From Candidatus Sulfotelmatobacter sp. (GTDB taxonomy: Bacteria; Vulcanimicrobiota; Vulcanimicrobiia; Vulcanimicrobiales; Vulcanimicrobiaceae): DNA of 64,000 nt. A program made the position numbers and the translations under genes. Shown piece after piece: positions 11,948 to 30,875 of the stretch (position 1 is its first letter; the number at the start of each line of letters is the position of its first letter). Under the pieces are notes generated by a model that had not been told where the DNA came from, searched no databases, and saw only the letters and a program-made list of their open reading frames with translations. The stretch is taken from the NCBI GenBank assembly GCA_035504415.1, contig DATJRY010000014.1:1-64000 (forward strand), written 5' to 3'.

Positions 11948-13942
11948 TCATTTTAGCCAACGATCGAACCAACCCACGATGCGCCGGCTGACGTCGCGCT
12001 GATCGGCCGGGCGATAGAACTCGTGCCCTTCGCCGGGGTAGATGACCAGCTCGGTCGGCACGTGGAACGCGCGCAGCGCCCGCCAGTACTCGTACGACTG
12101 CGTTACCGGTACCTCGGCGTCGCGGTCGCCGTGCAGCATCAGCGTCGGCGTGCGGACAGCCTTAACGAAATTGATAGGTGAGCTGCGCGCGTACACGCCC
12201 GGATCGTCGTACACCGAAGCCCCGAAGTACGGTATCATCCACGTGTCGATGTCGTTGGTGCCGTAGTAGCTCAGCCAGTCCGAGAGTCCGGCGCCGGCGA
12301 CGGCGGCGTGAAAGCGGTGCGTCTGCGTCAGCGCCCACATCGTCATGTAGCCGCCGTAGCTCCAGCCGAAGATGCCGACGCGTTTCGGATCGACCGGCGC
12401 GACGTGCGCGACCGCGTCGAGACCGGCCAAGACGTCGCGCAGGTCCCCGTAGCCGAAGTCCTTGACGTTGGCACGCGTGAACGCTTCGCCTTGACCGTAG
12501 CTGCCGCGCGGGTTGGGCTCGAAGACGAGGTAGCCACGCGCGGCGAGGGTGGCTTGGAACGCCATTGGGCCGCTCGGGTAGGTCGGGTAATTCGCGAACG
12601 CCGGGCCGCCGTGGATGAGCGTGACGAGCGGATAGCGCACGCCGGCCTTCCAGCCGGGCGGATAGATCAGCCAGCCCTGGACGTGCATCCCGTCGCTCGT
12701 CCAGGTGATGCTGCGCGCCGCTCCGGTCGTGCGCGGCACCGTGTCGTTGGCGTGCGTCACGCGGCGCATCGCCGTGAGCGGACCGAGCGCGATCTCGGGA
12801 GGTGCCGTAATCGACTGGACGATCGTCGCGGCCAGCCGGCCGTCGCGCGAGAGCGAGACGCCGGCGTCTCCCGGCGCCAGCCCGGCGAAGCCGGTCGCGT
12901 AGATCGTCGCCTCGGCGCTCCAGAGCGCACGTTGTCGGCGCGCAAGCGTGTCGATCGACGCGATCACGCTGCGGCTTCCCGCCAGTTCCGTCGCCACGAT
13001 GTTATCGCGCGATCCGTGCCAGGTGATCGTCGTGACGGACGCGTGCAGATTCGGCGTGACGTCCGTCGCCGCGCCGCCGCGCGCCGAGACCACCTCGACG
13101 TCGCCGCCGGTGACGGCCTCGTCGCTCATGATGCCGCCGATGTAGGCGATGCGCGTCCCATCGCCGTTCCAGCGCGGTGAGGCCAGCTGGAGCGTGGGGT
13201 GGTGGATCTCTTTGGTCGCGCCGCTGCGCGCGTCGATCGTGTAGAGGTCGGCGATCCACCAGTTCGCGTCGCCGTCTCCGTGCGCGGCGCTGACCGCGAA
13301 GCGGCGATCGTCGGGCGACCAGTCGTACTCGTACACGTTGAGATCCGCCGGCCCGAGCAGGCGAATCGCTCCGCCGCGCGCGGGCATGACCGCCAGCCGC
13401 TGCTCGTAGATTTTCGCACCGACCACGCCGGCGTCGGGTGTCGCCGGGTTGAGCGGGCTCGGCGTTTTCGGCGCACCCGGCGAGTACAGGAACGCGATGC
13501 GCGTGCCGTCGTGCGACCAACGCGGCGTGCTCAGTGGACCGCGCGCGTGCGTGAGCACGTGCGTGCGCAGCGTCGCGAGGTCGAGCAGCGCCAGCTGTCC
13601 CTGTCCCGTGGCGTCGGTGGTGACGAACGCCAGCGTGCGGCCGTCGGGCGACCAAGCCAGATCGCCCTCGTCGCAGCCGTTGCCGGCGCAGGCGCTCACG
13701 CGGCGCGTCGCGGTCGGATGCGCGACCGGCGCCAGCTCGACGTGCCCGGGGCCGCTGCCCTCGCTCTCGACCGACGCGATGTGCAGGCCGTCCGGTGAGA
13801 GCGCGACCTGCGCGTACTGGTGCACGGCAGCCAGCGCGGCCTCGATGCGCGGATAGGGTAGCGGGGCCGCTTGCGCGGTCCCGCCGAGCGCCGCGGCTGC
13901 CACGCACGCGAGAAGAAGCGCGAGTCGAGAGCGATGCGTCAT
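11948..13942 (-). CDS. S9 family peptidase (prolyl oligopeptidase/acylaminoacyl-peptidase type)
   Basis: A 664-residue secreted serine peptidase. It has an N-terminal signal peptide (about 1-26, ending AQA), a beta-propeller region with repeated TolB/WD-like SPDG and W-DGTRIA units (about 45-400) and an alpha/beta-hydrolase domain. The catalytic triad is readable: Ser528 in GWSYGG, Asp608 in GDRDAEVP and His640 in GEGHEF. It is predicted to remove dipeptides or acyl-amino acids from short peptides in the periplasm. The start lies 33 bases after the stop of the enolase-superfamily gene, suggesting it is the third gene of a LacI-regulator-led operon. The exact specificity is not readable. Confidence 0.92.
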   Translation of the reverse strand: MTHRSRLALLLACVAAAALGGTAQAAPLPYPRIEAALAAVHQYAQVALSPDGLHIASVESEGSGPGHVELAPVAHPTATRRVSACAGNGCDEGDLAWSPDGRTLAFVTTDATGQGQLALLDLATLRTHVLTHARGPLSTPRWSHDGTRIAFLYSPGAPKTPSPLNPATPDAGVVGAKIYEQRLAVMPARGGAIRLLGPADLNVYEYDWSPDDRRFAVSAAHGDGDANWWIADLYTIDARSGATKEIHHPTLQLASPRWNGDGTRIAYIGGIMSDEAVTGGDVEVVSARGGAATDVTPNLHASVTTITWHGSRDNIVATELAGSRSVIASIDTLARRQRALWSAEATIYATGFAGLAPGDAGVSLSRDGRLAATIVQSITAPPEIALGPLTAMRRVTHANDTVPRTTGAARSITWTSDGMHVQGWLIYPPGWKAGVRYPLVTLIHGGPAFANYPTYPSGPMAFQATLAARGYLVFEPNPRGSYGQGEAFTRANVKDFGYGDLRDVLAGLDAVAHVAPVDPKRVGIFGWSYGGYMTMWALTQTHRFHAAVAGAGLSDWLSYYGTNDIDTWMIPYFGASVYDDPGVYARSSPINFVKAVRTPTLMLHGDRDAEVPVTQSYEYWRALRAFHVPTELVIYPGEGHEFYRPADQRDVSRRIVGWFDRWLK

Positions 13943-25957: not shown

Positions 25958-26854
25958 TCAGGCGGCCGGGGGCTGCGCTTTCTCGCGCGCGGCCATGCGG
26001 GCGCGCTGCGGCTCGACGGTGTACTTCGGATCGAGTGCCGATTGCTTGCCGGCCGCCAGCACGGTGAAGCGCTCGCACATCCCGGCCGCCGCGACGCACG
26101 CGGCCGCGATCGTCGAGACGGTGCGGCTGCGCCGGCCGAGCAGGCCGAGCACGGCGCCGGTCAGGGCGAGCGTGTTGGTCGCGCGCTGCAGCGCGCCGGC
26201 CCGGCCCGTGTGGTACGGCTCGGCGAGCAGCGGCCCCAGCCGTGTCTCCATGATTCCGCCGACGCCGACCATCGCGAGCGCACCGCCGATCATCAGCCGT
26301 CGTGCCGATCCGCTTTCGGCGAGCGGCGCGAACGCGACGCCCGCCGAGCCGGCGGCCGCCACCGCGCTCGAGGCGAACAGGAACGGCAGCACGTCGTGCG
26401 CTTCGTGCCACGCCGGCGTCGCGGTGTCGGCGACCAGCGCGGCCGTGTACGTCGCCAGCGCCGGGCCGACCAGGCCGGCCAGTGCCTCACCGGCGTACTG
26501 GGTGCGCCGCCAGCCCAGCAACTCGGCCAGCGTCGAGCCGCCGAGCGCGGCGCCGTACGCGCTGAAGATCCACGTCCCCACGCTCATCGGCGAGGTCGGC
26601 TTGAAGACGCGCAGCATGTTGTAGAAGCGTGCGGGCCGACCGAGGTCGACGATGAGCAGCGGTCCGGCGAGCGCGATCGCGGCCAGCGCCGCGCGCTTCT
26701 CGGCGTTCGCGAGCTTGTGCGCGCCGCGCATGCGGGCGCACGCCATCGCGACCGCGCCGGCACCGGCCAAGCCGCCGAGCCAGAAGTAGACGTCGATGTA
26801 CCAGCCCCAGATGTGCGGCCGCACGATCGGCTTGCCGTAGTACGAGTCGCTCAT
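25958..26854 (-). CDS. NrfD/PsrC-like membrane subunit of formate dehydrogenase
   Basis: A 298-residue integral membrane protein with about eight helices, of the NrfD/PsrC quinone-interacting type. It starts with a conserved cytoplasmic/interface segment (YYGKPIVRPHIWGWYIDVYFWLGG, about residues 5-28). It would pass electrons from the iron-sulfur subunit to the quinone pool. The start overlaps the stop of the iron-sulfur gene (ATGA). An NrfD-type rather than cytochrome b-type (FdnI) anchor is a distinguishing feature of this formate dehydrogenase. Confidence 0.9.
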   Translation of the reverse strand: MSDSYYGKPIVRPHIWGWYIDVYFWLGGLAGAGAVAMACARMRGAHKLANAEKRAALAAIALAGPLLIVDLGRPARFYNMLRVFKPTSPMSVGTWIFSAYGAALGGSTLAELLGWRRTQYAGEALAGLVGPALATYTAALVADTATPAWHEAHDVLPFLFASSAVAAAGSAGVAFAPLAESGSARRLMIGGALAMVGVGGIMETRLGPLLAEPYHTGRAGALQRATNTLALTGAVLGLLGRRSRTVSTIAAACVAAAGMCERFTVLAAGKQSALDPKYTVEPQRARMAAREKAQPPAA

Positions 26855-27663
26855 TGCCGCTTCGTTCCGAGCGCCGCCAGCGCGGTGACGCCGACGATCG
26901 CGAGCGCGGCCAGGCCCGCGTGTTTCCAAATCGACAGCAGATCGCGTGTGGTGTCGATCGGATCCGGCGGCAAACCGTAGACCTCGGGCTTGTCGAGCAA
27001 CAGGAACATCGAACCGCCGCCGCCGATCCCGTCGTTCTGGTCGCGGAGATAGAGCGACGCGTCGGTGTACATCCCGCCTTCGCGCACCTTGGCCAGTCGT
27101 GCGTCGGCCCGCGCGCGCAGCTCGTCGAGCTCGCCGAATTGGATCGACTGCGTCGGACAGGCCTTCGCGCAGGAGGGTTCCTCGTTGTCCTTGAGCCGGT
27201 CGTAGCAGAGCGTGCACTTGGCGGCGCGGCCGGTCTCTTCGGAGCGCCCGATGACGCCGAACGGGCAGGCCGGCACGCAGTAGCCGCAGCCGTTGCAAAC
27301 GTCCTGCTGCACGACCACCGTGCCGTGCTCGGTGCGGAAGAGCGCACCGGTCGGGCAGACGTCCAGGCACGCCGCGTGCGTGCAGTGCTTGCAGACGTCG
27401 GACTCCATCAGCCAGCGCCCGGACTGTTCGACGAACGCGACGTGGCGCCAGGTGGTCGCGGAGAGCGCGCCGGTGTTGTCGTACGACTCGCCGCTGAAGT
27501 CGTAGCCGTCGCTGGGGATCTGGTTCCACTCCTTGCACGCGACCTCGCACGCTTTGCAGCCGATGCACAGCGTCGTGTCGGTGAAGAAGCCCACGCGCGG
27601 CTGCGCCTCGTCGCCGTAGGTGGCTTGTTCGCGCGGCGCGCCGGTCGCGTCGAAGAGCTCCAT
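26851..27663 (-). CDS. Formate dehydrogenase iron-sulfur (beta) subunit
   Basis: A 270-residue electron-transfer subunit with four 4Fe-4S motifs: CIGCKACEVAC (from residue 33), CKHCTHAACLDVC (from 91), CNGCGYCVPAC (from 123) and CTLC...CAKAC (from 150). A single C-terminal hydrophobic helix (about 246-264) anchors it to the membrane, as in FdnH/FdoH. The start overlaps the catalytic subunit's stop (TGATG). It relays electrons from the molybdenum/tungsten subunit to the NrfD-like protein. Confidence 0.95.
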   Translation of the reverse strand: MELFDATGAPREQATYGDEAQPRVGFFTDTTLCIGCKACEVACKEWNQIPSDGYDFSGESYDNTGALSATTWRHVAFVEQSGRWLMESDVCKHCTHAACLDVCPTGALFRTEHGTVVVQQDVCNGCGYCVPACPFGVIGRSEETGRAAKCTLCYDRLKDNEEPSCAKACPTQSIQFGELDELRARADARLAKVREGGMYTDASLYLRDQNDGIGGGGSMFLLLDKPEVYGLPPDPIDTTRDLLSIWKHAGLAALAIVGVTALAALGTKRQ

Positions 27664-30600
27664 CAGTCCTCCGTCTCCAGTCCCGCGCGGGTGCGGTACT
27701 CGTTGAGCAGCTCGACCACCGCGCGTCCGCGCGGCCGCCGGCCGGGACGAATGTCGCAGGTCGTCGCCTTCGACTCGCCGATGTGCACGTTCGGGTCGGC
27801 CGTCATCGGCCACAGGTCGTTGGCCGCGTCGCCCGTCACCAGGCCTTGGAAGCCCCAATGGTACGGCAGCCCGACGACGCAGGTCGTGCGGCCCTCGACG
27901 CACTCGTCGTGCATACGCTCGGTGACCAGCACGCGCGCCTCAATCGCGCTGCGGGCGGTGATGATCGTCGCCCAGCCGCCGTTCTCGAGGTTGCGCAGGC
28001 GCGCCAGCGCGGGGCTGATCTCGCAGAACATCTCCGGCTGCAGCTCGGAGAGATGCGGCACCATGCGCGACATCCCGCCTGCGGTGTGGTGCTCGGTCAG
28101 CCGGTAGGTCGTCGTGATGAACGGGTACACGCGCGCGTGCGGATCGCCGTCGACCGGCTGCAGCTCGTTGTGGACGTGCGGCCAGTGCTCGCGGGTCGGG
28201 CTGGCGCGCTGCGTGTAGAGCGCGTTCTTGAAGGGCGACTCCTCCGGCTCGTAGTGGGTCGGCAACGGACCGTCGAGCAGCCCGTCGGGCGCGAACAGCC
28301 AGCCTTTGCCGTCGCCTTGCATGATGAACGGCGAGACGCCGTCGAGCGCCTTCTCCGCGGTCGCGCCGTCGGGCGGCACGTAGTCGGGTCGCTTCGTCTT
28401 GTCGAAGTCGGGGACGTCGGGGCCGGTCCACTCGCCCTTCGCCTCGTCGAACCACATGAGTTTCTTGCGCTCGCTCCACGGTTTGCCGGCCGGATCGGCG
28501 GAAGCGCGGTTGTAGAGGATGCGCCGATTGGCCGGCCACGCCCAGCCCCATTCGGGCGCGATCTCGCTCTGCTCGTTGCCGGGCTTCCGTCGGGCTGCCA
28601 TGTTCTGGCCGTCGGCGTACACGCCGCAGTAGATCCAACAGCCCGCTCGCGTCGAGCCGTCCGCCTTCAGTTGCGTGTAGGTCGAGATCGGCTTGTCCTC
28701 GGCGTCGTAGCCGTTGATCTCTTGCAGGACCGCGTCACCGTCGGGATCGTGCTGCGATCCCGTGGTCGGGTAGTCCCAGGTGAGGTCGAGCACCGCGCGG
28801 TCCTTCGGGTCGTTCTTCGCGGCCAGCTTGGCGCGGATGCGTTTGCCCAACTCGTAGTAGAACCACAGCTCCGAGCGGCAGTCGCCCACCGGCTCTTTCG
28901 CCTGATGGCGCCATTGCAAGAGCCGCTGCGTGTTGGTGAACGAGCCTTTCTTTTCGGTGTGGTCGGCGGCGGGGAGGAAGAAGACTTCGGTCTTGATGTC
29001 CTCGGTGCGCAGCTCCCCGCGGTCGATCTCCGGCGAGGTGTGCCAGAACGCCGCACTCTCGATCTCGAACAGGTCGCGCACGACGAGCCAGTCCAGCTTC
29101 GCCATCGCGCGGCGATGGAGCGATGCGTTCGCGGAGCCGACCGCCGGGTTCTCGCCGACGACGAAGAAGCCCGGCACCTTGCCGTCGAGCATCGCCAGGA
29201 TCGACGGATACGTCGAGTGGTCGCCGGTTGCCCGCGGCAGGTAGCCGAAGCAGAACTCGTTCTCCGGCGTGGCGCGATCGCCGTACCACGATTTGAGCAG
29301 GCTGACCGTGTAGGCGTCCATGTGCGCCCAGTAGCCGGCCTTCGACGAAACGGCGTCGACGAACGTCTTCAGGTCGGTGTGGTCGACCATCGGCGTCGGG
29401 ATGTAGCCCGGCAGGATGTCGAACAGCGTGGGGATGTCGGTCGAGCCTTGGATTGAAGCGTGGCCGCGCAGGGCGAGGATGCCGCCGCCGGGGCGCCCGA
29501 TGTTGCCGAGCAGCAGTTGCAGGATCGAGGCGGTCCGGATGTATTGCACGCCGACGGTGTGCTGCGTCCACCCGACCGCGTAGCAGATGGCGGTCGTCCG
29601 TTCGCGCCCGGAGTTCTCGGCCATCGCCTTGGCGACGTTGAGGAAGTCCGCCGCCGGCGTCCCGCAAATCTTCTCCACCATCTCCGGCGTGTAGCGCGCG
29701 AAGTGCCGTTTGAGGATCTGGAAGGCGCAGAACGGATCTTGCAGCGTCGGATCGACGTGCGGCGGTTTGCCGTGCTGCAATGTCGGGCCGCTCCCGCCCT
29801 TGCCGGAGCCCTCACCGGACTGCGCGCTCGTGCGCTGACCGGCGGCGCCGTGCATCGCAATGCCGCGGTATTGCCACGAGGTGAAGTCGTACTCCCGGGC
29901 TGCGGGATCGAAGCCGGAGAAGAGACCGTCGAGCTCCTCGGTGTCGCGGTAGCGCTCGTCGATGATCGTCGACGCGTTGGTGTAGGCCTTGACGTACTCG
30001 TCGAACCACAACCCGTTGTCGAGCACGTACTTGATGATGCCGCCCAGGAACGCGATGTCGGAGCCCGGGCGGATGCGTACGAAGTCGTGCGCGACGGCGC
30101 TGGTGCGGGTGAAGCGCGGGTCGACGTGGATGACGCGCGCACCGCGCTCGCGCGCTTCCATCACCCATTGGAACCCGACCGGATGGTTCTCCGCCATGTT
30201 CGAGCCCATGATGAGGATGCAGTCGCTGTTTTGCAGGTCCGCCGGAAACGTCGTGGCCCCGCCGCGGCCGAATGAGGTGCCTAGACCAGGCACCGTCGAG
30301 CTATGTCAAATTCGGGCTTGATTCTCGACTTGCACTATCCCCAAGCCCGTGTAGAGCTTCTTCATGAGATAGTTCTCTTCGTTGTCGAGCGTCGCGCCGC
30401 CGAGGCTGGCGATGCCGAGCGTGCGCCGCAGCGGCCGTCCCTGCGCGTCACGGTCTTCCCATGTCTTTTCGCGCGTCGCAATGACGCGGTCGGCGATCAT
30501 GTCGACGGCCGTGTCGAGGTCGAGCGACTCCCAGCGCGTGCCGTGCGGGCGGCGGTACTTCACCTTGTACTCGCGCAGCGGGCTCTGCGTCATCGTGCGA

Positions 30601-30875
30601 CTCGCGGAGCCTTTTGGACACAAGCGGCCGCGCGAGAGCGGCGAGTCCGGATCGCCCTCGATCTGCACGACCTTGTCGTCTTTGACGTAGATCCGTTGAC
30701 CGCAGCCGACCGCGCAGTACGGGCACACCGACTGCACGACTTTGTCGGCGGTCGCGGTGCGCGGCGTCAGCGCCGCCGAGGCGTCGGAACGAGCGGCTTC
30801 GGCGAGGCCGAAGCGGTCGCGGCCGAGTTGCCGCAGGAACGCCAACGGGGCGCGCGGACGATCCGAAGCATCCAT
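27663..30875 (-). CDS. Selenocysteine-containing formate dehydrogenase catalytic (alpha) subunit
   Basis: A 1070-residue molybdopterin enzyme oxidising formate to CO2. The N-terminal 4Fe-4S ligands are C51, C54, C58 and C86, followed by K88. An in-frame TGA at 30306-30308 is codon 190. The flanking sequence NQARI-(U)-HSSTVPGLGTSFGRG matches the NQARV-U-HGPTV context of E. coli FdnG, so the TGA encodes selenocysteine. A SECIS hairpin lies directly downstream. Reading the TGA as a stop would split the gene into 189- and ~876-residue pieces. Unlike FdnG there is no twin-arginine signal, so a cytoplasmic active site is suggested. Coupled to the iron-sulfur subunit gene. Confidence 0.95.
30276..30294 (-). 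promoter_or_regulatory. Bacterial SECIS element
   Basis: On the minus strand the RNA folds as GGTGCCT / AGGCACC (seven base pairs) closing a GGTCT loop. The loop begins 18 bases after the TGA, the same spacing and loop sequence as in E. coli fdhF. It should recruit SelB for selenocysteine insertion. Confidence 0.9.
30306..30308 (-). other. In-frame UGA selenocysteine codon
   Basis: TGA on the minus strand, codon 190 of the formate dehydrogenase alpha subunit. The conserved protein sequence continues in the same frame on both sides and the SECIS hairpin follows. Confidence 0.93.

Follow-up and report, generated by a model that had tools for sequence, protein, structure and literature searches.

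A predicted selenocysteine-decoding formate dehydrogenase gene and its SECIS-type hairpin in a probable Eremiobacterota genome

Formate dehydrogenase operon

The window (the whole stretch of 64,000 nucleotides that was analysed) belongs to a draft assembly of 4.17 Mb in 21 contigs that is 95.7% complete, and carries a formate dehydrogenase operon on its reverse strand. The alpha subunit gene (27663..30875, - strand; molybdopterin/4Fe-4S formate dehydrogenase) runs from an ATG at 30875 to a terminal TGA at 27665-27663. It encodes 1070 residues and contains a single internal stop, a TGA at 30308-30306 (codon 190; 30306..30308, - strand), that is predicted to be read as selenocysteine (Sec). Mechanical ORF calling breaks the frame into two fragments, 30306-30875 (189 aa) and 27663-30293 (876 aa); these are the two broken genes that an earlier note on this DNA had expected from automatic annotation. 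The joined product matches NF041513 (formate_DH_Act, NCBIfam; curated cut-off: 1400 bits) over its full length with 1847 bits, and scores 957 bits against TIGR01553. This protein has the Pfam domains Molybdop_Fe4S4, Molybdopterin and Molydop_binding. Its relatives in the PDB include the Sec-containing formate dehydrogenases 6sdr and 8cm4 and E. coli FdnG (1kqf). Codon 190 lies at the catalytic Sec/Cys position in the context NQARI-U-HSSTVPGLGTSFGRGG, which matches that of the Sec codons of E. coli fdnG (codon 196) and fdhF (codon 140). The sole internal stop and the NF041513 score bear out the earlier reading of a formate dehydrogenase that continues through this TGA with the motif NQAR(I/V)-U-H. 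Inspection of the alpha subunit by eye showed no clear twin-arginine leader. No other bacterial selenoprotein family is as widely distributed as the formate dehydrogenase alpha subunits (PMC13188914).

The alpha stop codon overlaps the start of the next gene (TGATG), which encodes the beta subunit, a ferredoxin-type 4Fe-4S protein (26851..27663, - strand; TIGR01582, Pfam Fer4_11). The match of this protein to TIGR01582 (FDH-beta) scores 177.6 bits, below the family cut-off of 334.7. The beta stop codon in turn overlaps (ATGA) the start of a gene encoding an NrfD-type membrane subunit (25958..26854, - strand; Pfam PF03916 NrfD, 56.3 bits). The same alpha-beta-NrfD gene order is found in Amycolatopsis (locus L018). 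Judged by its sequence, the operon is closer in type to a quinone-linked formate dehydrogenase than to a soluble NAD enzyme.

Elsewhere in the window, ARAGORN calls a 91-nt tRNA-Arg(tcg) at 13433-13523 (+ strand). Rfam, run at its gathering threshold, reports no tRNA anywhere in the window, and the call is probably a false positive.

SECIS hairpin

A putative bacterial SECIS hairpin is located 3' of the internal TGA (30276..30294, - strand; arms 30288-30294 and 30276-30282, loop GGUCU 30283-30287). It has the sequence GGUGCCU-GGUCU-AGGCACC and is separated from the TGA by CAUAGCUCGAC. The stem is a perfect 7 bp whose first pair lies 11 bases 3' of the TGA, and the GGUCU loop begins 18 bases 3' of it. 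The seven-pair hairpin with a GGTCT loop described earlier is thus present, and the distance of 18 bases, which had been given for the start of the hairpin, is correct for the loop only. As drawn, the hairpin has 7 bp and a 5-nt loop; the computed fold (-11.8 kcal/mol) adds one G-U pair, which leaves a 3-nt loop. The bSECIS model has a stem of 4-16 bp, an apical loop of 3-9 nt with G in the first two loop positions, a distance of 16-37 nt between UGA and loop and a minimum free energy of -7.5 kcal/mol or lower (PMC13188914). The hairpin falls within every one of these limits (GGUCU, 18 nt, -11.8 kcal/mol).

The energy z-score of the TGA and hairpin is modest (-1.87), so energy alone would not prove a SECIS element. 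The window has a single occurrence of their combined geometry, and 100 shuffled windows have none. Rfam at gathering thresholds gave no match anywhere in the window, so the hairpin has no backing from that database. When a covariance model built for it was run against the whole genome, the formate dehydrogenase site came back at 72 bits, a score obtained with the site itself in the training set. None of the four weaker matches inspected has a TGA in frame where the model expects one, so the model shows no further element of this type. Among the candidates rejected as SECIS elements, C21:266637 (24 bits) is within the frame of a [2Fe-2S]-type protein, and C11:616286 falls on a formate dehydrogenase-like frame with Cys. 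The latter frame (L140; C11:616286-616338, - strand) is a second reading frame of the genome for a formate dehydrogenase-like molybdoenzyme, in the Cys form (NNVDHCTRLCHASSVAAL). From their predicted products, Sec and Cys forms of the enzyme appear to coexist in the genome.

A hairpin at this place could arise simply because the conserved peptide VPGLGT is encoded with GC-rich codons, with no signal in the RNA. The peptide forces four of the seven stem pairs, and when synonymous codons were drawn at random according to the gene's own usage, a 7-pair stem appeared in 8.5% of draws; the full stem together with the GGUCU loop, however, appeared in just 0.7%. The loop-proximal stem pair joins the gene's only CCT (of 69 Pro codons) with its only CTA (of 80 Leu codons). 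GGT makes up 8 of the 95 Gly codons, and loop U24 falls on a silent third codon position.

The comparative evidence for the hairpin is stronger than these chance tests. In a set of 44 distinct elements, covariation is seen at two third-position pairs, 18-30 (CG, GC, UA, GU or UG) and 21-27 (CG, UA or GC). The covariation score of the hairpin in this set is 0.344 (shuffled: 0.110), a value reached in 0 of 500 shuffles, and shifting the pairing partner abolishes the covariation. All 76 distinct Sec-type sequences have T at loop position U24, whereas two Cys-type homologues (TGC; Sinomonas L070 and Arthrobacter L087) do not have pair 21-27, and one of these is also without the loop U. None of these stem and loop changes alters the protein, so they are a mark of selection acting on the RNA. 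No relative was seen in which TGA and intact decoding go together with third positions that are unpaired and a loop that lacks the U. Covariation at synonymous sites, a fixed loop U and the absence of a pair in Cys homologues leave a mere by-product of peptide and codon usage very improbable, and argue for a hairpin that acts as an RNA signal.

Conservation of the UGA codon

Homologous loci were found in several phyla. At the Sec position, 95 of 109 loci have TGA, 12 have TAG and two have the Cys codon TGC, such that 107 have TGA or TAG; nine further loci all have TGA (9/9). The TAG loci are from Geodermatophilaceae (Modestobacter, Geodermatophilus and Blastococcus homologues; L019, L025, L035, L048, L052, L067 and others) and share the hairpin. 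This conservation refutes a reading of the TGA as a sequencing error or as a recent nonsense mutation that made a pseudogene of a Cys enzyme. Nothing favours such a reading beyond the in-frame stop itself; the downstream frame is intact and conserved, a full Sec machinery is encoded in the genome (see below), and the chance that the codon is an error or a lesion is negligible. The earlier note had named a sequencing error as a finding that would count against its interpretation; instead, both TGA and hairpin are conserved across relatives.

Selenocysteine machinery

The earlier note also reasoned that the genome must encode SelA, SelB, SelD and tRNA-Sec, and that a complete genome without selB or tRNA-Sec would refute the selenoprotein reading. 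A genome search located all four genes (selA, selB, selC and selD), each outside the window, and the Sec-decoding trait is complete. The selA gene (C12:230435-231769; 469 bits) is followed immediately by selB (621 aa; 295 bits), whose product carries the SelB winged-helix domain. The tRNA-Sec gene (C12:268246; 75 bits) has the anticodon UCA and, by eye, an acceptor stem of 8 bp. The selD gene (L098; C11:469995-470918; 377 bits) has one in-frame TGA in the context YSACAG-U-ASK, in agreement with UxxK, the motif given for SelD proteins that contain Sec (PMC13188914). This site was found via protein homology only; a strong hairpin with a GGUCC loop lies 3' of the TGA (z-score -3.1). SelD is thus predicted to be a selenoprotein itself, which, together with the formate dehydrogenase, brings the predicted selenoproteins of the genome to at least two.

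Readthrough of the UGA without SelB, through near-cognate suppression or a general reassignment of UGA, has no point in its favour and is scarcely credible, given that tRNA-Sec (UCA), SelA, SelB and SelD are all present and that UGA remains the terminator of the alpha gene itself and of the next genes in the operon.

The presence of a TGA-interrupted alpha subunit gene with an adjoining hairpin is confirmed, and the earlier selenoprotein interpretation is supported. From the sequence evidence, the gene is almost certainly a functional selenoprotein gene, with Sec predicted to be inserted at UGA190 via SelB and the hairpin. It is an ordinary, well-supported member of a known selenoprotein family, with a textbook mechanism, and recognising it puts back together a gene that simple ORF calling cuts into two pieces.

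Host phylum and distribution of the trait

The EF-G encoded in the window is 81% identical to that of a Candidatus Eremiobacterota assembly (L020/G149) and 78% identical to that of a relative from its own order (G029), as against 63-64% for the Chloroflexi and Actinobacteria genomes that have the same formate dehydrogenase. Based on these identities, the host phylum is most likely Eremiobacterota, of which Vulcanimicrobium alpinum has been isolated (PMC9758169). At a strict threshold, tRNA-Sec is found in at least 100 of the 149 genomes sampled from this phylum. The formate dehydrogenase family of the window is present in 64 of the 149, and all Sec sites read from the phylum's genomes are TGA. 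Enzyme-bearing genomes without a strict tRNA-Sec call were considered as possible Cys users, and this was rejected: among five such genomes examined, four encode a SelB that scores above the cut-off, and the remaining one (G121) has a completeness of only 83%. A formate dehydrogenase gene with two in-frame TGAs was noted in a genome of the same genus (G128), but the other TGA, near the gene's end, is the normal terminator. The product of this gene (L133; C4:1350561-1354730) is a Sec formate dehydrogenase of the classical FdnG type; it has a twin-arginine-like leader and the motif EQQARV-U-HGPTV, and differs from the enzyme of the window.

No paper naming both selenocysteine and Eremiobacterota was found in a literature search that covered only a minority of subscription papers and is therefore weak evidence of novelty. 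It is possible, although we put it forward tentatively, that Sec decoding is widespread in Eremiobacterota and apparently undescribed there, and that the bacteria of this phylum, together with Actinobacteria, may rely on a SECIS subtype without a bulge that their own SelB recognises. The significance of the locus lies in the pairing of the selenocysteine trait with a respiratory-type formate dehydrogenase in a little-studied, largely uncultivated phylum; with both present, formate may serve as an electron source.

Proposed model

The model starts from direct observations: the sequence, its conservation and covariation, the four sel genes and the layout of the operon. SelA and SelD would produce Sec-tRNA-Sec(UCA). 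With the ribosome positioned at UGA190, SelB loaded with GTP and Sec-tRNA would attach to the hairpin (30294-30276) by its C-terminal winged helix, and the codon would be read as Sec instead of ending the chain. In the alpha subunit, Sec190 would ligate Mo or W. Electrons would then pass from the 4Fe-4S cluster of this subunit to the FdhB-like subunit and on to the NrfD-type quinone-linked membrane subunit, both encoded in the same operon. For the decoding, the metal ligation and the path and direction of the electrons, the model draws on established knowledge of these families.

Comparison with known systems

The NF041513 enzymes of Actinobacteria (Amycolatopsis, Actinomadura, Streptomyces, Modestobacter and others) are approximately 63-67% identical to the window's enzyme over nearly the whole length, and have Sec at the same place and the same SECIS loop and spacing. 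The window's host, however, is in another phylum, and the stem letters differ by compensatory synonymous changes. The formate dehydrogenases of Geodermatophilaceae (Modestobacter, Blastococcus and Geodermatophilus) belong to the same enzyme family and share the hairpin, but have UAG as the Sec codon, whereas the window's gene has UGA and the tRNA a UCA anticodon. The use of UAG for Sec in this family of Geodermatophilaceae enzymes has already been published (PMC5330540).

E. coli fdhF and fdnG resemble the window's gene in the His that follows the UGA, the [GA]GUCU loop and membership of TIGR01553, and the loop of fdhF has the same spacing of 18 nt from the UGA. The stems differ. In fdhF and fdnG, the 5' arm is one nucleotide longer owing to an unpaired base, a bulged U that is contacted by SelB. 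The stem in the window is symmetrical and fully paired; its 5' arm has no bulged U of the E. coli type, and the 44 aligned elements are in register with equal arms. The earlier description of a near-identical E. coli-type SECIS element accordingly fits the loop and spacing, but not the stem, which is a symmetrical 7 bp. Given that the E. coli elements have an unpaired U and this stem has none, its recognition by the SelB of the genome is presumed. A further difference lies in the operons: E. coli fdnG is accompanied by the cytochrome b FdnI, and the window's operon has the NrfD-type subunit instead.
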